Assembly: GCA_000310025.1 (NCBI GenBank)
Contig: FN648835.1
Location: 6,610 to 33,462, forward strand
DNA length: 26,853 nt
Source of the DNA: Ectocarpus siliculosus
Taxonomy: Eukaryota > Sar > Phaeophyceae > Ectocarpales > Ectocarpaceae
Direction: 5' to 3'
Shown here: positions 13,001 to 26,298 of the stretch, one piece after another
How the letters are laid out: each line of letters starts with the position of its first letter
Position numbering within the stretch: the first letter of the stretch is position 1
Made by a program: the position numbers and the translations under genes
The notes under the pieces: generated by a model
What the model saw: only the letters and a program-made list of their open reading frames with translations
Databases searched by the model: none
Told to the model about the DNA's origin: nothing

Positions 13001-14018
13001 GGCCAGGGGGAAACGAGGTATCACCAAGAAGACCCCGACGTTAAAAAAGCTGGAGCTACCCATCGCACGCCGTCTTTTTATGCTCTCCAGATCCCCACCA
13101 CAACACCACACACAACAAGAGAAGATCGCACGAAATACGAAATACAACAACATAGCACGCGGACGGCAGGGGTGCAGCAGTCTAGTTCCGTGCAGGAGAA
13201 GGACACACCGCACAGGCCTCTTATCACAATCGCTCGGCACGCCAACAATACGCCATGAAATAACTACGAACCGCAATTTCACTGCAAGCTTTCCCTTCGC
13301 TGGTCCATATAGCTGAAGACCAACTTGCTTGTACGGCGGTTGAACCCCTCAGATAGCCCATTTGCTCCCACGAGCTACGTTCGACCGAGCGGATCGCTTG
13401 CAGAAAAGCAACCACACTGAGGATACAATGGTGCCAATGCTTGCAGTTCTTCCTCGCAAGTGTCCGAGCTCGGGAGAGCCGCAACAGACGCGATTGCTCT
13501 CGTGGACAGGGCAAGTAGCTCTGATCATCCCAACTGGCGTTGCGCAATGCAAGAAACCTTGAGAAGAAACTGTCATGTTCAGCTTCGCATCTTTCAGTTG
13601 CTGATTCTTCAATGGCGCACGTCGTTCATGCAAAACAAATAAGCACACCACAACAAACCAGCAGCAACAAAAACAAGACCCACAGACTCCACAAGCCACC
13701 CCTCTCGCCCACCACCTCGGCGTTCCCCCCCCCGGAACACGTTGCAACACACGGAACAAAAAGCAACAAAAAAGTCTAACCACCCTCTTTGCTCTTCATC
13801 GCCAAAAGTGGCATGCACGCCAAACTGCTCCGTCAAGCGCAAAAGAGACGAGAGCGTAAAACACCCCTGCGCCGCCTCTAAAACCCCCAAAAAATAAACC
13901 CCCAAGACAGAGAAACACTTGACTGCCCCTCGGGCTTCAAGTTCAATGGCCTCCAGCGGTTTCACGATCTTCCCACGGCCCTTCAGACGGGGTGGCCAAA
14001 TAACGTTTGAGACTGGGT
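10075..14018 (-). other. A/C-rich interval (T/G-rich on minus strand), possible long 3' flank of the minus-strand gene
   Basis: Apart from the duplication at 10421-10569, I see no gene, RNA or mobile element here that I can name. The plus strand is strongly enriched in A and C, with strings such as ACACCACC and CAACAAC repeated irregularly. The bias is the mirror image of 7118-9000 and would suit the 3' UTR or flank of the minus-strand gene ending at 14152 or 14019. Open frames within it are short and their predicted products are not recognisable. Confidence 0.4.
10421..10569 (+). repeat. diverged tandem duplication, about 65 bp units
   Basis: Units at 10421-10484 and 10502-10569 share in order TTGCTnnnACCATCC, a TGTAA block, a GACCCTnACG-like block, TTCG and AGnCAAA, with small gaps between blocks. 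The pair is separated by about 17 nt and lies in the A/C-rich intergenic interval. No coding function is evident. Confidence 0.55.
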
Positions 14019-14162
14019 TCAGTCATCGTTAACGACTTCCCGGGCACCGCGTGACGTCCATGGACCACGCGAAAACCCGACTGCGTCGCTCCCGCTGTTT
14101 TCGGGCGCACCCAAGAGGTCAATCAAGCCCGACCACACCCCGCTACCGGCATCAAGGGCTAG
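14019..14162 (-). other. alternative terminal exon for the minus-strand gene
   Basis: Using the acceptor GACAGTTCAG ending at 14163 instead of the one at 14308, exon 7 would continue in phase 0 into a 47-codon tail plus stop (TGA 14019-14021). The tail contains SGLIDLLGAPENSGSD and is less repetitive than the rest of the protein. It is a genuine competitor to the terminal exon 14152-14307 used in the main model. Both could be used by alternative acceptor choice. Confidence 0.35.
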
Positions 14163-16537
14163 CTGAACTGTCGGCGGCGGCACCGGCTGCCGGGTTGGAC
14201 GCACTGTTGCCGCTGCTTCCGATGGCGACGACGGGGCCGCCGCCGCCGCCGCCGCCTACAGCCCCGCCGCGCTCTCCCCCAACGGGAGTGGAGGAGACGC
14301 TGCTGTTCTGACGGTGGCCGGAGGGCCTCTGCTCGACCACACAAGCACGGAAAACAGCGGGTTATCATCATCTTTGCTGTAGCGATGTTTTGGAGTAGTT
14401 TGCTCGTGGCCGAACTTTAGATCTCGCGGCCATTGGCATGATGGGTAGAGAAAAAAAAGCGCTCATGGCGACCGAGATACACACCGATTCTACCCGGGAG
14501 CCGGACGAGGAGGAAAGAAGCGAGTTACGGTAGCGATTTCTATCCCATACACAAACTCACCACGTCGCCGCCGCTCCAGTCACTCCCCCGCTGTCCGAAC
14601 GACGAAAACAGGCTGTTGGTGTCCACGTGGAGCGGCGGGTCCATTCCCGAGCCAATTGCGCCGCCGCCCCCGCCGAAGCCACGGCCGAGGTTGAGCTGCT
14701 GCGGCATCATCGCAGGAGCAGCATCCACGGGACCGGCGCTGTTGTGAGACGACGGCGAGGACCCGATCCCAACTCCGCCGCCGACCGTGTCCAGACCAAA
14801 CAAGCCGGAGACGAACCCTCGACCCGCGCCTTCGCCGGCCGCGCTGCCGGTGAAGCCGGCGGGGGCGGCGGTGGCGGACGTCCCCTGCCCGCCGTCATCG
14901 CTCCCGGCATTGCCCTCGCTGCGGGTAGCGGAGAAAATGGCGGCGACGGCGGCGCCGGGACCGCTACCATGCGCGCTCAGAGCACCCTCGCTTCCCGTCC
15001 TGCCGAACACCCGGGCACCACCGCCGCCACCGCCGCCATACCCGGCGAACTCGAGCGGGAACGAGAGGCCGGTAACGAGAGGACTGTCGCTAAGCGGGGA
15101 CGCGCGGCCGACGCTATCAGCCCCTCCAGGCACGAACCCTCCGCCCCCGTCGCTGCCGCTGCTCCATCCGGGATACCCACCGGTCTGGTGGTTGATGCTG
15201 CTGTCGCGATTCGCCGTGGTGGACGTTGGGTGGGCGTCCTCCTGCGTACGCCGGAACATCGCGGCGGCGGGCTCGTGACTTTTCTCCGCCCGGCTTGTGG
15301 CAGCCGCGCTGTAATTGTGTCGAGCACCGCCAGGGGTGTGGCGGGGGCGGCTACCGCCGTCGCTGCCACCGCCCTCCTCGAAGCCGCGGGTGTCTCCCGT
15401 GGCGTGAAAGGGGTGCGGCGAAGCGTTTGAGTACTGCAAGAGGCGAGCGGAAAGGGTCGGGAGAGGGTTCATCACGCTGAATATTTGCTCTTCGGTGGAA
15501 CGGTACAACAGTCAACACACCTCCCCGGTGAAAGAGGGGGTCCGTAGCGCCAGCGGGGGTTGTTATTCACAAGCTCGACCCACAACAACGGGCAAACGCA
15601 GCGAACGTGAATACACCGGAACACACCTGAGGAGAGCTGATCCGATAAAAAACAATCCCACTGCTCACAAAATATATAAATATAAAACAACGACGCGTGC
15701 AGATGGAGCCGCCCTGTTGATACGTGCCGCCGTCGACGAATGAAACGAACCTGCCGCTGCTGCTGCTGCTGCTGCGAGTGTCCGGCCTGGGATCCCTTCC
15801 ACGGGGGCACCACCGCCGCCTCTGCCGCTCCTGCGGCGATTTCCTGGGTGCTGGTGGCGGCATTGTTCCACGACCCGTCAGCCGCGGCGGTTCTCGGCGT
15901 CACCAGAACAGACTCCGCCACCTGCACATACCGATGTGGGGGCGCGCACGTGTGCGGTGAAACCACAGCGAGGTACATGCCGAGCAGACGTGCCCACGGG
16001 CGCCTGGGGGCGAGCTTCGGGCATGCGATGCAACGCACAGACGAGCCTTCTGCGAGCGCCGCCGGAGGAAATAAGCGCAGGGACAAACATTTCTTCCGCC
16101 AGACAAACCCAAGCCGAAGCATCAACAAATTATCGAAAAAATACACTGCATCATGTACCAAAATAAAATACATGGCAACTCGACCAAATGTTCCCGCGCT
16201 TCAACGGCAAAAAACTCCACCCCCCGCCATCGAAAAATACCCCCCCAAGAGAACAAAATGGTACACAGCAGGCAAACAGATCAGAACACTCGCATTAAGA
16301 GAGATGTCGCCTTCTGCGAACGGCGGCGGTGACCCGTGCCTCACGCCGCCGGCGGTACCCGCCCCCCGCACCAAGCTGATTCCATCCCCCCCGAACATCG
16401 CCTCCCTCCCACCAAACCCGCCCCCACCACCACCACCACCACCACCCCCGTTGCCGACGGTCCGCCTCCCCGCATCGCGGTGGTACGCAGCGGACGAGAC
16501 GACCACTCCCCCGTTGCTCCTGCGAGACACGAGCTGC

Positions 16538-16578
<41 letters not shown>

Positions 16579-19500
16579 GGCGGGGAGGTGGCGGCTGCTG
16601 CCCACACCGGTGTTCCGCGACCCGTCGCCGTTTGCGCCGTTACCTGCACCATCCGGCTGGCGGTGGTGGTGGTGGTGATGCTGCTGCTGCTGCTGCTGCT
16701 GCTGCTGGCTATGGCTCCGGTAGGAGTCGCCGCTACTGTACCGCCAGTGCGGGGTGGGTTGTTGCTGGTGGTGGTTAGCGTGGTAGTGGTCGCCCATTCT
16801 GGACGGCGGCGGCGGCGGCGGCGGCGGCTTGCTCCCGTCCGATCCTCGGGAGTAGCCGCTGTGGCGGTAGTGCTGCTGCACACCGTCGTAGACGTCGCGC
16901 TCTTGGAGCTTCGCGCTGCCGCCGCCGCGGCCAGCGTGGTGGCTAGAACTCACGAGGCCATCGCTCCTCGCCCGCTGCATGCGGGGGTAGGAGTGCGGGT
17001 GGTACTGCCGTTGGTGCTGCTGCTCCTGGTAGAAGCGCCGGGCGTGCGACGCGCTGGCGTCGGACTCTTCGAAACCGCTGAGGGGGGTCAAGCGCTCGCC
17101 GCCGATCATGCCGTGGACGCGGGCGGTGCTACCGCCGGGACCCCTCTCTCGAACCTGAGTCCCGCGAAATCATTGGGGGATCGGGGTCGGAGCAATCGGG
17201 TTGTGGTGGAAAGGTGAACGGCGAACTGGTATGTAGCAGCGGATGCGTGGGGCCATCGACACAAAACGCGGGTGATCACAGCAAACTCATCAGTAAGCAG
17301 CATCAGCACTGAAGCCGCCTACTGTAACTCGTATTCTCATGAACGGGTACAAGTTGTGGGCGAGGGAAAAGTCCCACACATTATTCTCCGAGCCAGGCTT
17401 CATCTTTTTCGGGTACAAAACGCTTCCACAAATATATGTTAGCAGAGTCGTGGGGACCAACGTGTACGGGAACTCCGTGCACAAGTTTGATACCCGTCCT
17501 CTGGGCCTTCGGGTGTTCCGAAGCAACAGGAAAAAAGAGCGTGCGCGGGCTGACAAACGTGCTCCGAACGTGAACGCACCTGTTCTTCCGCGAAACGCCG
17601 GCGTTCCTCCGCGAGTTGCCCACCGTCCAGGTGATGCAGCGACCGCGGTCGATCCCCGGACCAACCACCCGCCGCCCGCTCAAGCGGGTCACGGTCCCGC
17701 CCTCCGCCGCGGTCATGGTGATCACCGGCGGTAATCCCGGCATCCGCAGAAGACCCACGCACACCCCCGGCGGCGCCGTCCTGCCTCCGCAGGTCTCTGA
17801 ACTCCTGCGCCCAGAGCTCGTCTCCCATCATCAGGAGGGACGACGACTGCCCGCTGCCGCCGGCCGATGGCAACGGCATGGACACAGGGCGCCGGCCAGA
17901 GGAGCTGGACGCTGCTTCCGGCAGCATGGTGCTCGGTGGCTGCTGCTCGGTAGGAAGGCCTCTTCCTGATCCTCCGCCGTGCGGGCCTCCAAAACCGCCT
18001 CCAACGCCGCCGCCGCCGCCGGAAGTGGGGTGGCCCTTGGCCTCGAGAGTCAGGTCCGGACAGCTGATGGCAGACAATCTCTCAGCTGCTGCAGCTGCCT
18101 CTGCTTCCGTCGGCCCCCGCTCAACTCCGCTCGACGCCCCGCCCCCCCTTCCAACCCCGCTCGCAGCGGGAGCCGGACCAATCGACCCGCCGCCGCTTAC
18201 TTCTCCAGAGGCCACTTGGTTATCGTCCCGGCTCACCGCCCGAGGCTGTGAGGACGAGCGAGGGTGTTCGTCGTCGTCGGCGTAGGCCCAGGGGTCCGAC
18301 ATGCTCCGCCTTATCCTGGGGGAAGGGCTGGCGCTAGAGTAGCCATCGTGGTAGAGGTGGTGGCGGAGGTCGCGGTGTTGGTGACTGTCTTCGCCGCCGA
18401 GCTTGGGGGAGTACTGGCCGTTGGGACGAGGCGACCTGCTCTCGACAACAGACATAGCAGGCGGCGCGTTGGGGTTTGCCAACGGTTGCGCCCACGAGCG
18501 AGAGGTGGTGGTGTCTTCGAGAGATTTTCAGAAAAACAGACCACGGGCGACCAATGCTACCCGCACCCACACCTCGGCTACGGATAAGAACGGGTAAGAG
18601 GCTACTTGAATCTGCGTTGCCGGCCCCACAGAACACAGGGAAAGGGCCCAAGATGCGACAGGCTGTAGCGCAACACTTGAGATATCGAACGGCAATGGCG
18701 CGGTGTCAAACACAGGGGCAGTGGACAGCCTCCCGCACCGCCCCCGTCGGACCCACCCTCAACAACTATCGCACCCCCCTCCGCTGCTGCGATTCAACAA
18801 CAAAAAAAAAGGCCACGTGTAGAAACTCTCCCGCTTGTCACCTGTTACGTCCCCGCCGCCCACCCCGCCGGGTGCGACGATGCGGCCGATCCTCCACGCC
18901 CGGCGTGGAAGGGCTCGAGCGAGGCACCGGGCTCCGGCTGTCCGCGTGCCCCCCGCGGCGCCGCCCAAGGTCGCCGCTGCGAGCCGGCGAGACAGCCCGC
19001 CCTCGGCCGAAGTCGCCGCCGCCGCCGTCGGAGCAAGGGTTATTCCGTTCTTGTTGTGCTCCCGGGAGGGCGGAGGAGGCAGGCTGAGCCGGCGCGGTCA
19101 GCGCCTCCCTCGCGAGACGTATCTGCGAATGAAGGGGGAGGGGGGAGGGGGGGTACTCATGTATTGCCGGCCTTCGCGGATAGATGATTCTGCGGGGAGT
19201 CAAAACAACCAGCTCGCCTTAGCGAGGATTGTCGAATTAATCTACGAAATAGAGAGGGCTTCGTATTCTTATCCCTAACCCTGACCCTGACCCTGACCCT
19301 GACCCCCAACTCTTGTCTAGGGGAACGGACAGCATGAAGACGCGCTCATCATCAGGTTACCCCCGGCGGGGGGTGCGCGGCGTTGCACGGGTGTGTGTGT
19401 GTGTGTGTGATTGATGGAGCACCGTCGGAGACAGGAGGGGGAGAGGTGCCCAACCTTCGAACGAACCGATCGCCGTACAGTAGAACGAGACGCACCAACC

Positions 19501-22500
19501 ACGGCAACCGTTAGCACAACAAAGAACAAACAACCGCCAAGAGACCACGACGGCCGGCCGACGCCCACACATGCAAATAACATTCTCGAAAAGTTCTGGG
19601 TTGTACACCCCCGCATCACACTTCTCACCACCGGCATTTGGTTGTGGATGACGCCAATTTCTAGAAAACGTACACACAGCCACCAGAAGAGCTTACCCAA
19701 CCGAGTTAGTGCCAGAGGCGATGGGGATGTGTTGAAGTCATCGCAGTGAGTTCACAAAGACAAGAGGCGTGCTGACGACAAAAAAAACTCTGAAAATCAC
19801 CTTGGTCAACTCCTTGAGTTCCTGCACGGTCAGCCCGTGCGGCATGGCAGACGCGAACTGAGCACCCCTCGGAGCCGCCCCCGCCCCGCCGCCCCTGCTG
19901 CTTCCCCCCTGGGGCCTCGCCAGAGGGGACTGCCTCCGCCTGCCGTTCCCTATCGGCGACACCGACCGGCCCCCGAGGTTGACGCTCCCCCCCCGGACGC
20001 CGCTCCTGGTGCTGTGGCCGCCGCTGCTTGTGGTGCTGGAAGGTGTCGGGGGGATGGCGGGGACATTTCCTCCATGCCCCCCCCCCACCGGGCCGCTGCT
20101 TGCCGCCGCCCCCGCCGCCGCCGCGGCCGCCGCTGCCCCTGTGACAATAATCCCGTCTTGACGCCGCGAATGAGGCGGCTGGTCCCCCGCTGATCCGCCC
20201 ACCGTGGAAGAAGGCAACATTCCGTGGGTGAGGCTGCCGCTTCCGCTTCCGATGCTGCGAGAGGAAGACGTTCGAGGGGGGGGGAGGGGGTGCTGCCGGT
20301 GGCGGTGGACGCCGTCCCCCCCGAAATACGCCGACGTCTCGAGGCTTGCCTCGCGATCCCTCCCTTCGTGGGCTACAAGCAGCGGCGGCGGAAGGTCTGG
20401 AGACGAGGCCCGCGAACGCGGCTGCGGCTGCCGCCCCGCTAGTTGACTTTCTCCTGCACCCCCGGCGGCAAGAATCACACGTGGGTTCAAAAAAAAAAAT
20501 AACGATAAAATCCGTTAGACATAATAACAGGCTAAATAGCTCCTGCGTGCAACGATCCACCCGCAGGTGTCAGTCGATTCTCGCGCGTACCAGCCAGCAG
20601 GAATGGGAAATTCTCTCGGATTGGTATGATACGCCTAGCGAGGTGTGATTCTTCAAGCAGTGTCTACACTCTAAACGTGGTCAGCGTTGTTGTGCACGTA
20701 AACAAGATACATACCACAGAGCTGTTTCGTGCGCGGCTGGAGGGAGAGCGAGTGCGGTAACTTCGATTTTCTACCTATGTGTTGAGGTGGTCCACAAAAA
20801 TGCATCGCTAAAGAATGTCGCCTAGTATATAACCGCATGAACTCGAGGACATAATGCTGCGTACATTGCACGACAGAGACGCAGAAAAAGGAAGACGCGT
20901 TTCAAAAGACTACATAGTCTGGGAGAGAGGGACACAAGCGGAATGTGATTGTTGTATTTTTATAAAGCAATCATAATCTCACAGAAAGACTACCCGTTCG
21001 AGATACAACAACAGTCGAGAGGGGTGTACTTAAGTCTTCTCAGTGAGTGGAGGGAAACCGGCTGGAAACTGGGCTTATTTTGAGTTTGTTTTAAGCCCAC
21101 GTATACACTGAATTGTATCAGTGATGCCAGCTGGTGCTAACAACAAAAGTATCTGTATAGGGGTACATTTTGTAACGAGGAGTACATTTCGTAACACATC
21201 CCCTGTAGTTCTCTCCTGGGTCAACGACAAAAGGGGAGAAGACCTCCGGAAAGCCGTGTGTTGGAAGATGTGGCCTTCACAGGGAACACGGCGCGGCGGT
21301 TGACAGCTATTCTGAATCTATTTCTTATTCTTCGAATTTGACCCAACGAATCCATCTCTATCTACGAAAAAAGAGTCTAAGAAAGAGTAAGATTAGCAAT
21401 GGATTCATTGTAGCGTCAGAGAAAGCTGTATTTTGAATCTACATGTACACTCATTTTATATTTATATTTAGAAAAACAGGAGTTCGTGGTTCGAGCAAGC
21501 TGGTTCCGGCTCATTTTGAAATCTACAACGCGACATTGATCACCTCGCGTGATGAGTGTAGGTGAAACGAAACGCATTAGAGGGGATTGGGGTACAGAGC
21601 AGTATGTATGGCAGGTAGGAAGGCGATAGCAGTCCGTTTGTATCAAAATGGAATTCAATCCTGTTTGTGTGAAATGGAGCGGCAAGGCAAAAACAAAAAA
21701 ACGGAAGGAGATCAGCATGAACGGCAGCACCAGCAAGCAGAAGAACTTCCCTGTTTTCTCAGACGACGGGTCAGTGTGTCCAAGAAATTTGACACCATTT
21801 TTTGGAGCGTGTCGTGTGTTGTTTTTGATTTCGTCCACTTGAAACAGGAAGGAAGGCAGGGAAAAAGAGAAGTGGCCAAAATCGGGTACACCCGGTCAGA
21901 ACACGGCCATAATCGGGTAGACCTACAAGACGCTGCTGGGAGCGACCGCATGCCACCATCTGATTGGCCGACGCCCGCCCCTACCCGGCCTTGGCCGTCT
22001 TTCCACCGGGTGCACCCGATCTTGGCTACTCACCCCCCGGAGGGGTACCCGGTTTTTCTTTCCCCTACCCGAAAGTTGGCTGGGCTGTTCGACCGAAACC
22101 CATGCACACAAGTACACGTCCGCAACGCCCTGCCCTCGAAAATTCGGACGTTCTGACGGCCTGCCGGGCGGAGGCAGACCCTCCGCCGGCGATGGAAGTC
22201 TCCCTTGGGGGAAACGGCTAATGGTCTGTCTGTGCAAGTGATCAAGAAGAAGAGCTGGATGAATCCCTCCCTCACGAGATGCGACAGACACAAGACTCAT
22301 TTAAAAAATAGACATATTCTCTCCCTCCCGCTACTTGCTCATTGGCGAAAAATGAGGGCCAGTGGTATGCGTCCGACCCGTGATTGTGTGCATGGGTTTT
22401 GGTCGAACAGCCCAGCCAACTTTCGGGTAGGGGAAAGAAAAACCGGGTACCCCTCCGGGGGGTGAGTAGCAAAGATCGGGTGCACCCGGTGGAACGACGG

Positions 22501-23018
22501 CCAAGGCCGGGTAGGGGCGGGCGTCGGCCAATCAGATGGTGGCATGCGGACGCTCCCAGCAGCGTCTTGTAGGGCTACCCGATTATGGCCGTGTTTTGAC
22601 CGGGTGCACCCGATTCTGGCCACTGTTATATAGGTCATACTGACAAAATAGATTCGTTGGGTGACACTGACAAAAAAAAAAAAAAAACACTTGAAAAAAA
22701 AACGCCGTCTCCTCATCCTAAAGGCGAGGCCTCCTGGACTCGTGGCTTTGTCGGATCTTTGGACTTTCGACTACTGCTGTGAGAGGGTACTTCTCGAAGG
22801 GGTAGTCTTTCTGTGTGTGTATTTATTTTCCCCAAGATTAGATGAATCTGGTAACACACTTGGTGTTTTTTTAGGAACGTAACCTCTTCGGGCTTGTGCA
22901 CCCTCTCTCCTTGTGGCGTGTTCTTTGGATCCTCTGATGGCTCTAGCATTCTTGTAACCCTGTACTCGAGCTTTTGCTAGATTTTGGGATTAGCAACTGA
23001 CACGAGTGTAATGTGAAG

Positions 23019-23050
<32 letters not shown>

Positions 23051-24809
23051 AACAACGCGCGCCAACTCCTGCTGTGGATCGAGATGAAGAATTGTTTGAA
23101 CATTCGAAGTTTTGCACCACAGGGAAAAAAAATGACGTCATGCACTTATACCTCGTAGATGTGTACTCTCTCTGAAAGACAGAAAAAACAAGCTGTGCCG
23201 TGTATTAAGGAATAATATAAACACACACAGAAAGACTACCCATTCGAGATATACCCACAGTCGAACGGGATGTGGTGGAGTCTTTTCAGTGTATGAAACA
23301 AGCGCATCATGGATATCCTCTTTCCGTAAAGCCTTCCTGTATCTACAGATTGTGGTTACGGGGTAAAATGCGATGCATTCAGAACACCAAGGGATTTCAC
23401 CTTATACTTAGTTACTACAAGCAGACACACCATGTGAACCTGGGCGGGAAAAATATTGCAAAATACGAACATTTTTTTCTGGAAAGAAAGAGGAAAAAGG
23501 CTGCGTCCTCTCTCGACTCTTTGATTTCCGACGAAACAATAGTTGGGGTTGCTGTGGCATGCCATGCAGCGCATGAGAGCGATCGCGACGCAGGTCTCGG
23601 AGATGCTACTGTTCTCTTTCCTTCCTGTTTCCTTTTATTTTTTTCTCTTTTTCTCTTTAGTATCCTTGTCGCTCTTTCTTTCTCTCTTTTTCTGTGTCAG
23701 ATGGCCTTGTCTCTGCTTGCGTCTGAAGCACCAAGATTGAACCAAGGGAGTGTACCTCTTTCTCTCTGGCCCGTGATGCTGACTAGTCTCAGTTGTTACC
23801 TCGCAATGCGCGCAGAGGGAGCGGAGGACTCCAGAATATCTGTCGTTGATTTCTATTGACTTGCGAACCCCTCGGGGCCAGTTTGTTTGAGCGTACCTTT
23901 TTAGGGTAAAAGGTAACTTTTTAGGGTTAAAAGGTAAGTTATTAGCCTGCTGTGACCACGGGAATCGACCGCGTCAAGTGTTGGATCAGTACGGACATAT
24001 GAAGGTACTGGGTAGAGAGAGATCGGAACGTTTTTTAATGTGAAGACAGCAACAACAAGGCAACAACAACTGCTGATCCCAATGTCGAGGTCTACATACA
24101 ATGCAGGCGTAGTCTTGTTGTACGCACACCATCAACCACACGCCCGATGGAGGGGAACTCTCCGGCAAAATAAACAAATCAATAAATCAAAAATCAATAT
24201 ATTCTCTTTACGTACTGAAACGTAGTCTGCTGCACGGCGGTACATACAGGTTTGCATACGACGCAAGTGTACGGTGTGCTGAAGCAAAGAACGATTGCGC
24301 GAGCATCACCAACATCATCACCATCATTACCGACAACCTTTCGATCTTTTTTTATACTACTACGCACCGTCATGTTCGAAAGGGCTGCTGGCATCGGGAA
24401 GGCGCTGGTGGTGGTGGCCGTGGTGGTGGTTGGCCATCCGCAGTGCCGTCATCTTCTTGAGCTCCTCAACGCTTATCCCACTAGACAAGTTGCCAGCAGA
24501 TCCCCCACGCGCTGCCTCCCCCGGCTCTCCCCCTCCATCCTGCTCCTGATGGGGCAGTTGCACCGCCGCTGATGCTGTCGAGATCGGAACCGGGGGAGAG
24601 GAGGCACCATGGGAGCTCACGCTGCTCGTGTCCTCGCGTAGTAGCGCTGCTGCCGCTACAGCAGGGGGCTTGGACGCGGCCGGGGCTGCTACTACCGGCA
24701 GCAGCAGCAGCGCCTCCTCCGTAATCAGCGTGTTGCCTTTTCCTCCTCCTGGTGGTTCTTGCGTGTTGCTACTGCTACTGCTGCTCCTGGCGACATCCGT
24801 AGGCGACAT
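14152..24809 (-). CDS. large low-complexity protein with a duplicated ELK-T-R-A motif, eight exons; function unknown
   Basis: Exons in coding order: 24809-24368, 20453-19801, 19122-18849, 18514-17580, 17154-16345, 15921-15751, 15487-14561, 14307-14152. Phases agree and total 4,368 nt, giving 1,455 residues. ATG 24809 is the first Met after an in-frame TGA 21 nt upstream, though an acceptor-like AG lies between them, so an earlier exon is possible. I do not recognise the protein. Most of it is Ser/Gly/Pro/Ala/Gln-rich and probably disordered. Landmarks: motif copy 1 (residues 111-126), a His cluster just after it, motif copy 2 (354-369, split by intron 2), RRSMSDPW in exon 4, a short charged helix LAEERRRFAEEQVRER at the exon 4/5 junction, then polyP, Q9-H6, Q12 and polyG in exon 5 and Q6 in exon 6. 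This composition is common in nuclear or regulatory proteins, but no DNA-binding or catalytic domain is visible. Least certain are the exon 3 donor (GAC|GTAACA, alternative G|GTGGGC), the exon 7 acceptor and the 3' end. Confidence 0.6.
16540..16575 (-). repeat. (CAG)12 polyglutamine tract in exon 5
   Basis: Twelve perfect CTG units on the plus strand read as CAG on the coding strand and encode a polyQ run between HLPAH and PQL. The tract is a pure microsatellite, so its length is likely to vary between individuals. Confidence 0.9.
16681..16707 (-). repeat. (CAG)9 polyglutamine tract followed by polyhistidine
   Basis: Nine perfect CTG units on the plus strand encode nine glutamines, followed on the coding strand by CAT-CAC codons for six histidines. 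It sits in the same exon as the 12-unit tract about 100 nt away. Confidence 0.9.
19273..19302 (+). repeat. interstitial telomere-like repeat CCCTAA(CCCTGA)4 in intron 2
   Basis: One CCCTAA unit is followed by four perfect CCCTGA units inside the 678-nt intron between exons 2 and 3 of the minus-strand gene. On the coding strand it reads (TCAGGG)4TTAGGG. It is a short variant telomere-type array. Confidence 0.9.
19391..19409 (+). repeat. (GT)n microsatellite in intron 2
   Basis: Nine GT dinucleotides plus one G form a simple repeat inside the same intron as the telomere-like array. Its role, if any, is unknown. Confidence 0.9.
20981..21045 (+). repeat. 65-bp dispersed repeat, copy 1
   Basis: This stretch starts ACAGAAAGACTACCC and ends TCAGTG. 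It aligns without gaps to 23227-23291, matching about 53 of 65 bases by hand count. Flanking sequence on both sides differs. It lies in intron 1 of the minus-strand gene, on the far side of the foldback element from its partner. Confidence 0.75.
21871..22624. mobile_element. foldback / MITE-like element with 240-bp inverted arms
   Basis: Left arm 21871-22110 and right arm 22385-22624 are inverted copies of equal length, with only scattered differences. The outer ends read AGTGGCCA and TGGCCACT. Each arm carries several GGCCAnAATCGGGT-type motifs and short palindromes such as CGGGTGCACCCG and GGGTACCC, which resemble repeated transposase-binding sites. The 274-bp centre (22111-22384) has no convincing coding sequence, so the element would depend on a transposase supplied elsewhere. 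I could not find a target-site duplication. It lies wholly within intron 1 of the minus-strand gene. Confidence 0.8.
23021..23056 (+). repeat. (AAC)n microsatellite
   Basis: A nearly perfect AAC tract with one AAT unit follows directly on the phrase ATGTGAAGAC at 23011-23020. The same phrase also precedes a shorter interrupted CAA tract at 24038-24060, and in inverted orientation at 26306-26324. Confidence 0.9.
23227..23291 (+). repeat. 65-bp dispersed repeat, copy 2
   Basis: This is the partner of 20981-21045 in the same orientation, about 2.2 kb away. Shared blocks are ACAGAAAGACTACCC, TTCGAGATA, ACAGTCGA and AGTCTTnTCAGTG. The two copies bracket the foldback element. Confidence 0.75.
23894..23937 (+). 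repeat. tandem TTTAGGG-containing hairpin repeat
   Basis: A 20-bp unit (CTTTTTAGGG then TAAAAGGTAA) at 23897-23916 is repeated with one extra T at 23917-23937. The first copy lies within a perfect hairpin, TACCTTTT-loop-AAAAGGTA, with the loop TAGGGT (23894-23915). It is located in intron 1 of the minus-strand gene. Confidence 0.8.
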
Positions 24810-26298
24810 GCGTGTGTGTGCTTGCTGTCAATCGCAAGCGCACCCCGTCACGCTGGGAAAGAAGGGAGTGCCAGCCTTTCTCTCGCTCTCGCTGGAGATC
24901 ACCTCCCTCTTCCTTTACCCCCGGCTCGTGCGATAATGTTTCTTCCCGCCACCGCTGCCCACAACAAATCAAATATCGGAAATCGCTCACACACCCCGCG
25001 CGCTCTCCTCCCTGGATCGCCAGAAGAGGGCGTCGGGGTGACTGCACCTGCCAGCAGGAAACTGACGCCCGTGCCCCTACTTTCCTTCGCCCTCTTGGCT
25101 GCTGGTCTGGTGGGTGTGCGGGTGAGAGGTGGCTTAGGAGTGTGGGCGCCGACTTGTAGACTTGTAGTAGCAGTATTTACGCGGACGGAGATATGGGAGA
25201 CGGAGGTTACGCCGCGTTCGTGGTTGTTTCGAGTTTGAGGGCCCCCGCTGGTTCCAACCAACCAACGGGGCAACACCCCGGTGATAACAGCAGTACTGCT
25301 GTCTACTTGTAGATCAAAAGGCGGTTCTGTTGCACCCCTGCTCTCTTGTGCTCCCCCTACCCGCTGCTGCAGCCCGCGCCCTGGGTGGTGGCATCGGCGT
25401 CTTCTTTCTCTCTTTTTGGCGGGGATCCTGCCCTCTGCCTTTCCTCATTTTTCTCTCTGTGGATATCCGAACTTCAAAAACTGCCGTTCATCATCGAACC
25501 GCCCCCGGACACGACAGCAGGATATTCAACAGAGAGGTGCGCATGCAGGCCGAAGTTACCAAACCTCAGCCCTGAAATAGTGGATAGAGAGAGGTGCGGG
25601 GGCGGGGCGGGAGAGAGAGGGAAAGAGCGTTTGAATGTCTGCACCCACATTCATGCACGAGGTCTACAGCACCTCCTGTTATCCGTTGTCTCTCTGACTC
25701 TCTGACATATTATCTGCCTCCACAGAAAAGAAAATGGTTCGGACAAACCCTCCTGGATACCACGACTTCTACCTGTGGTGCTCGGAAACCTGTACGCAAA
25801 AAATGTCGCCACCGGTGTTGTTGCCGACGCAAGAGGAACGAACAGGTTTCGAACTACTACAAATGCATCCCGTTCGAAAGGGGTGTGGTGAAGTGAGGTC
25901 TTTATTTACAGCGAGGGTTGAGGAACACTCCCTGGGTATACCTACCTACCTCTGGCTTGATTTTTACCTACAAGTCGTCAATCTCTTACACGCAGTCTCG
26001 GCCGATGAATGATGAGCAGCTACAAGCAGTATGCATGTCATAGGACATGCAACATGCAAGCAAGCGTCACCGGTTTTGTCAGGGTTTTTGTACCCCCCCG
26101 CAAGTTGCCTCCAGTTCATCGCATCCACCAGCCACGCAGCCACTGCGAAGTGTGAAAGATACCGCCAAAGATCCAAGCACGCACGCACGTTCTTTCAGAC
26201 CCCTACAGCGGGGTACATAGCATACCATACACAGCATTGCTATTCATATACGTATGCATACGTACTGCTGTGTGTTACAGAGGGACACCCGATGTTAC
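24810..26298. other. upstream flank of the minus-strand gene; no supported gene
   Basis: No exon with a recognisable product is visible on either strand. A 93-codon plus-strand frame starts at an ATG at 25734 in an AAAATGG context, but its product resembles nothing I know. CT-rich patches (for example 25400-25460 and 25680-25720) occur. Promoter elements for the minus-strand gene would be expected here but cannot be pinned down. Confidence 0.4.

Follow-up and report, generated by a model that had tools for sequence, protein, structure and literature searches.

The stretch of DNA analysed here (the window) covers 26,853 nt of Ectocarpus siliculosus contig FN648835.1 (6,610-33,462) and carries on its minus strand a three-exon gene model in which a 16-residue motif occurs twice. 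The spliced model (24809-24368, 20453-19801 and 19122-18842) has a frame that is open throughout and encodes 458 residues. Exon 1 (24368-24809) begins at a candidate ATG at 24809, has an open, disordered frame containing motif copy 1 (GISVEELKKMTALRMA, residues 111-126, 24432-24479) and ends in phase 1 at the donor G/GTGCGT. Intron 1 (20454-24367) is 3914 nt long with GT...AG ends and matching phases (phase 1). The low-complexity exon 2 (19801-20453) encodes motif copy 2 up to its twelfth residue (GLTVQELKELTK, 19801-19836); the copy is interrupted between Lys and Ile by the phase-0 intron 2 (19123-19800, 678 nt, GT...AG) and completed by IRLA (19111-19122) in the open frame of exon 3 (18842-19122). 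The 3' end of exon 3 is uncertain, with 18849 or 18842 as last base. After splicing, copy 2 reads GLTVQELKELTKIRLA (residues 354-369; 19836-19801 plus 19122-19111), and the two copies are 227 residues apart. Intron 1 contains a foldback element (21871-22624) that is MITE-like, with two 250-nt arms which are 95% complementary and spaced by 254 nt, and a short telomere-like repeat of the GGGTCA/GGGTTAGGG type is found in intron 2 (~19270-19310). Three long, low-complexity frames on the minus strand (18527-17439, 17169-16201 and 15511-14540) may extend the motif gene. A neighbouring open frame on the plus strand (788-1141) matches the tyrosinase central domain (PF00264, E 5.5e-05).

The original prediction described a 16-residue motif present twice in an otherwise low-complexity protein. 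Both segments were recovered, starting at residues 111 and 354, with identity at 8 of 16 positions and a BLOSUM62 score of 49, and G, S, A, P and R account for 61% of all residues in the model. When the 458-residue model is compared with itself without gaps or overlap, the pair is its best match of 16 residues, and none of 300 whole-protein shuffles scored 49 or more (mean best score 35, maximum 45). Exact matches to the DNA core in the window were two, namely the motif copies themselves. When one mismatch was tolerated, three window matches were found against 2.21 expected and at least three were reached in 40 of 100 shuffles, so the short DNA core by itself says little.

Further copies were searched for in the genome (189 Mb, 492 contigs) with degenerate codon patterns and protein queries. 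This genome has at least 150 matches to the EsV_1_7_cys family (150 scored out of 880 candidates), compared to none in 14 control genomes, which suits a brown alga, the family being expanded in that group. Four copies were judged genuine, located at two loci: the window gene (W1 and W2) and contig C128 (C1 and C2). Exact matches to the core V-x-E-L-K-x-[LMI]-T were confined to the window gene, where there were two, and of the nine one-mismatch matches one was genuine and lay on C128. With five codon patterns, 3 of 11, 3 of 5, 2 of 4, 4 of 14 and 1 of 3 matches were judged genuine, always at the same four places, and the remaining 8, 2, 2, 10 and 2 were discarded on reading the flanks as they were without R14/[ML]15, reached a stop codon or missed the rest of the motif. 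The reversed-pattern controls gave 7, 3, 0, 14 and 3 matches, respectively; since these controls were often equally numerous, it is the flanking residues and not the match counts by themselves that serve as evidence. Another codon pattern had two matches (one on contig C6, L003) against one with its reversed control. Protein queries with single motifs found their own place only and no other copy in the genome. Because such queries fail to reach even the other copy of the same gene, they may have overlooked copies that diverge further. The four copies define the consensus [GM]-[ILM]-[ST]-V-[EQ]-[EDK]-L-K-x-[ML]-T-[AK]-[LIM]-R-[ML]-[AQ], in which V4, L7, K8, T11 and R14 are invariant. Elsewhere in the genome, a frame at locus L010 (G000:C26:3262021) contains two stretches resembling SAP on visual inspection, the second including MSVKELREIT, which resembles the start of the motif.

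On C128 the motif occurs twice, in the same order and on the same strand as in the window gene and 2.2 kb apart. The first match found there was copy 2 (FGPGLSVEKLKELTKLRLQQQ, 104835-104788, minus), which is intron-free; copy 1 (GMMSVQDLKQMTAMRMAQQQ, 107023-106976, minus) lies in an open frame approximately 2.2 kb upstream of it. Downstream of copy 2, 9137 bases (95331-104467) read N. The recurrence of paired copies that had been anticipated was thus encountered in a paralogue within the same genome. Identity was 10/16 between the first copies and 11/16 between the second copies, and 6 to 9 of 16 for the four other pairs. Columns 10, 12 and 15 divide by copy type (M10/A12/M15 in type 1 and L10/K12/L15 in type 2), none divides by gene and one divides crosswise. 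As three columns divide by copy type and none by gene, the doubling of the motif probably preceded the gene duplication. This is the simplest history for the 16 columns compared, for which the division is suggestive and no more. The two types may have slightly different preferences. Adjoining the paralogue, a 945-residue open frame (L023, G000:C128:110917-113751, plus) without Pfam match includes SVQELRKLAAATAAAR, which is motif-like but without T11 and R14. R-x-x-S-x-P sites were noticed at both loci: RRSMSDPWAY and RRPVSMP (18311-18282 and 17894-17874) in the next open frame of the window (18527-17439, minus), and the similar RRGISAPRM (105557-105531) and GRPLSAP (106753-106733) on C128. We take these sites to resemble 14-3-3 mode-I sites, a likeness that could be compositional chance; RRSMSDPWAY as a protein query of the genome found only itself.

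The open spliced frame is consistent with the proposed splitting of copy 2 by a phase-0 intron between Lys and Ile. Out of 41 AG sites between 19780 and 18800, only the acceptor at 19122, which is preceded by a long C/T-rich tract, continues as [ILMV]R[LMIV] and would restore the motif. The intron-free copy 2 of C128 reads LTKLRLQ where the window has LTK, a phase-0 intron and IRLA, and because this uninterrupted copy contains TKLRL the TK/IRL junction is independently supported. The intron within copy 2 has no evident role and was either gained in the window gene or lost in C128. For intron 1, matching phase and the recurrence of the motif pair point to the proposed joining of exons 1 and 2, and we infer that both copies are on one transcript at the window locus as well as at C128. 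The alternative, in which exons 1 and 2 belong to separate transcripts and each protein has one motif, draws on the 3.9 kb length of intron 1 and the foldback element inside it. We regard it as rather improbable, since the phases agree, the joined frame is open, and the copies on C128 show the same order, strand and proximity.

The surroundings of the motif were compared without gaps between the minus frames of the window (13501-24950) and those of C128 (104468-108600) after filtering for low diversity, and the best 31 matches were considered. Among these 31, motif pairs took the first four places (scores 53, 49, 46 and 44), with another lower at 41; next came stretches rich in Pro or His (43, 42) and then isolated pairs, for instance RSDGLVSSSHH/GSDQLSSSSHH with a score of 40. 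SPDPFR is found in short open frames at both loci (window 15464-15447, minus; C128 105636-105619, minus; score 41) and may represent either another island common to the loci or coincidence. Comparison of the window with two other parts of C128 (85331-95330 and 115300-121000) yielded scores of up to 51 and 48 for 15-residue stretches. The match scoring 51 (window 22844) lies in an arm of the intron 1 inverted repeat, the one scoring 48 is in the window frame at 17803, a different frame from that of RRSMSDPWAY, and both were judged unrelated. As unrelated stretches reach these values, a score of about 50 is no proof by itself.

At the codon level, the six copy pairs differ at 1-3 of 16 second codon positions, compared to 5-10 of 16 first and 5-9 of 16 third positions. 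Different codons are used for 5 of 8 shared residues in W1/W2, 5 of 10 in W1/C1, 5 of 9 in W1/C2, 5 of 11 in W2/C2 and 3 of 7 in W2/C1. These codon differences indicate selection on the motif at the protein level. Against this, C1 and C2 have 6 residues in common, 5 of which have identical codons, so that their codons give no hint of divergence. A recent segmental duplication was considered and discarded on the codon comparison of the motif copies. Within this one genome and for these four copies, the motif was kept while the flanks diverged. An alternative in which the pair was left behind neutrally by a recent duplication inside the gene, free of selection, would account for alike segments in one gene and for the identical codons at 5 of 6 shared residues on C128. 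We give it hardly any credence: the likeness is limited to 16 residues, the window copies differ in codon at 5 of 8 shared residues, the second codon position is spared from changes, and the pair is kept at a second locus whose flanks have no convincing likeness. Longer nucleotide similarity around both copies was not seen either.

AlphaFold was run on single sequences of the exon-1 frame (149 residues) and the exon-2 frame (258 residues). The exon-1 frame had a mean pLDDT of 55.7, with values of at least 70 in 17 of 149 residues. Copy 1 was predicted to form a helix at residues 114-127, from motif position 4 onwards, with a mean pLDDT of 90 for residues 111-120 and 78 for residues 121-130; a further five-residue helix (31-35) was of low confidence. 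In the exon-2 frame (mean pLDDT 50.4) a helix starts at residue 230, which is again motif position 4. Residues 1-20 of this frame and everything after the twelfth motif position come from translation of intron, so no meaning attaches to the helices called at 2-18 or to how the last helix continues. Motif position 3 is S or T, which fits a helix cap. The original prediction of an amphipathic helix is supported by these models as far as the helix is concerned, but its amphipathic character is not: the hydrophobic moments over motif positions 4-15 of the four copies (0.11-0.21) were equalled or exceeded by 77-91% of 5000 shuffles, and V, L, K, T and R together make a conserved face of mixed character. 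Positions 4, 7, 8, 11 and 14 fall within a 120-degree arc, as do 31 of 1287 equal-sized subsets (2.4%), a result that comes from four sequences only and lends mild support to the conserved residues forming one binding face in the predicted helix.

Pfam searches recognized no family, whether the queries were the four motifs (E up to 10) or six translations of exons and frames from the gene region (E up to 1), although the HMMER filters drop weak matches. Among viral contigs 217 pattern stretches were found and among prokaryotic contigs 190, none of which was confirmed at E 1e-3; with queries of 24 residues, which seldom reach this threshold, the test is a weak one. The motif strings searched for were not found in the literature, and the titles and abstract openings of the literature on the topic show nothing on the motif. 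As these string and topic searches, the latter at the level of titles and abstract openings, found nothing, we refer to the motif as undescribed.

The pair of motifs exists, recurs in the same order at a second locus and has been kept despite divergence of the flanks. We consider the best explanation, with a probability of roughly 55%, to be a long, probably disordered protein with two helices that dock on a shared partner domain, connected by a flexible tether. Since the pair is present in another gene of this genome as well, the helix is more likely to be a genuine binding module than a chance resemblance, and a docking motif, as had been proposed, is plausible. Each helix would dock via the face V4-L7-K8-T11-R14 plus [ML]15, one partner domain would serve both copies, and the disordered chain between the copies would act as a flexible tether and make the protein bivalent. 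Docking, the single partner for both copies and bivalency are inferred. The main rival is self-association, in which the two copies bind one another or the copies of the paralogue and lead to oligomers or condensates without an outside partner. Two copies per locus, a low-complexity background with much G, S, Q and H and the predicted helix are compatible with it, but a stable coiled coil usually takes more than the roughly 14 residues available here, the hydrophobic moment is low, and K8 and R14 sit in the conserved face, conserved Lys and Arg being atypical of a self-packing core; we regard it as unlikely. A worn-down SAP-type nucleic-acid-binding helix, of which only helix 1 is left, seems more doubtful still. 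We assume a resemblance of the first ten motif residues to SAP helix 1, and the genome stretch MSVKELREITSRLGVSTAGCLEKRDMVERI (L010), SAP-like by eye, resembles the same ten residues. No Pfam match was obtained with exon translations or motifs at the E-values given above, the AlphaFold model has no second helix after copy 1, and the G...G-K spacing is absent from the residues following the motifs.

A bolder version of the docking explanation, which we put forward tentatively and consider possible at best, is that the two genes belong to a family of disordered proteins in brown algae that align nowhere else and are defined only by the ordered pair of an undescribed helix, the two sub-types of which specialised before the gene duplication. 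Such proteins might be bivalent adaptors for an undescribed partner domain, possibly switched by phosphorylation of Thr11, an invariant residue of the binding face. The earlier suggestions of selection and of a family signature gain support inside this genome, where the second locus keeps the ordered pair while its flanks have diverged. Low-complexity algal proteins seem unalignable and tend to stay hypothetical; the paired motif offers a handle for finding their relatives, a testable bait for partners, and comparative support for a splice junction without RNA data.

Several known systems resemble the motif in part. Sequence matches in the PDB were designed repeats and chance matches and were rejected as relatives. 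The designed repeat proteins 5byo (dTor_12x31L) and 8vd6 (CAP REPEAT) have a repeat unit GISVEEL or GLSVDEI, which is like the motif start, but these proteins and 4yxy (dTor_9x31L) are artificial by name and their matches reach motif position 10 at most. A single repeat scores only 4-8 bits, and 5byo and 8vd6 owe their low E-values to the summing of near-identical repeats. A SAP domain has a second helix and a glycine/lysine spacing, both of which are missing at the window motif. The Pfam profile of the ELK domain of KNOX proteins was matched by neither the exons nor the motifs. Helical short linear motifs, or molecular recognition features, are a general kind of element found in disordered proteins. 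The window motif differs from those described in having no Pfam model or literature string match and a low hydrophobic moment, but it shares with them a short conserved island with a predicted helix, disordered low-complexity surroundings and more than one copy per locus. A short helix-prone segment inside predicted disorder, as expected of a helical docking motif, was found in the models, and we regard the motif pair as real, on the searches made undescribed, and as a putative example of this kind of motif.
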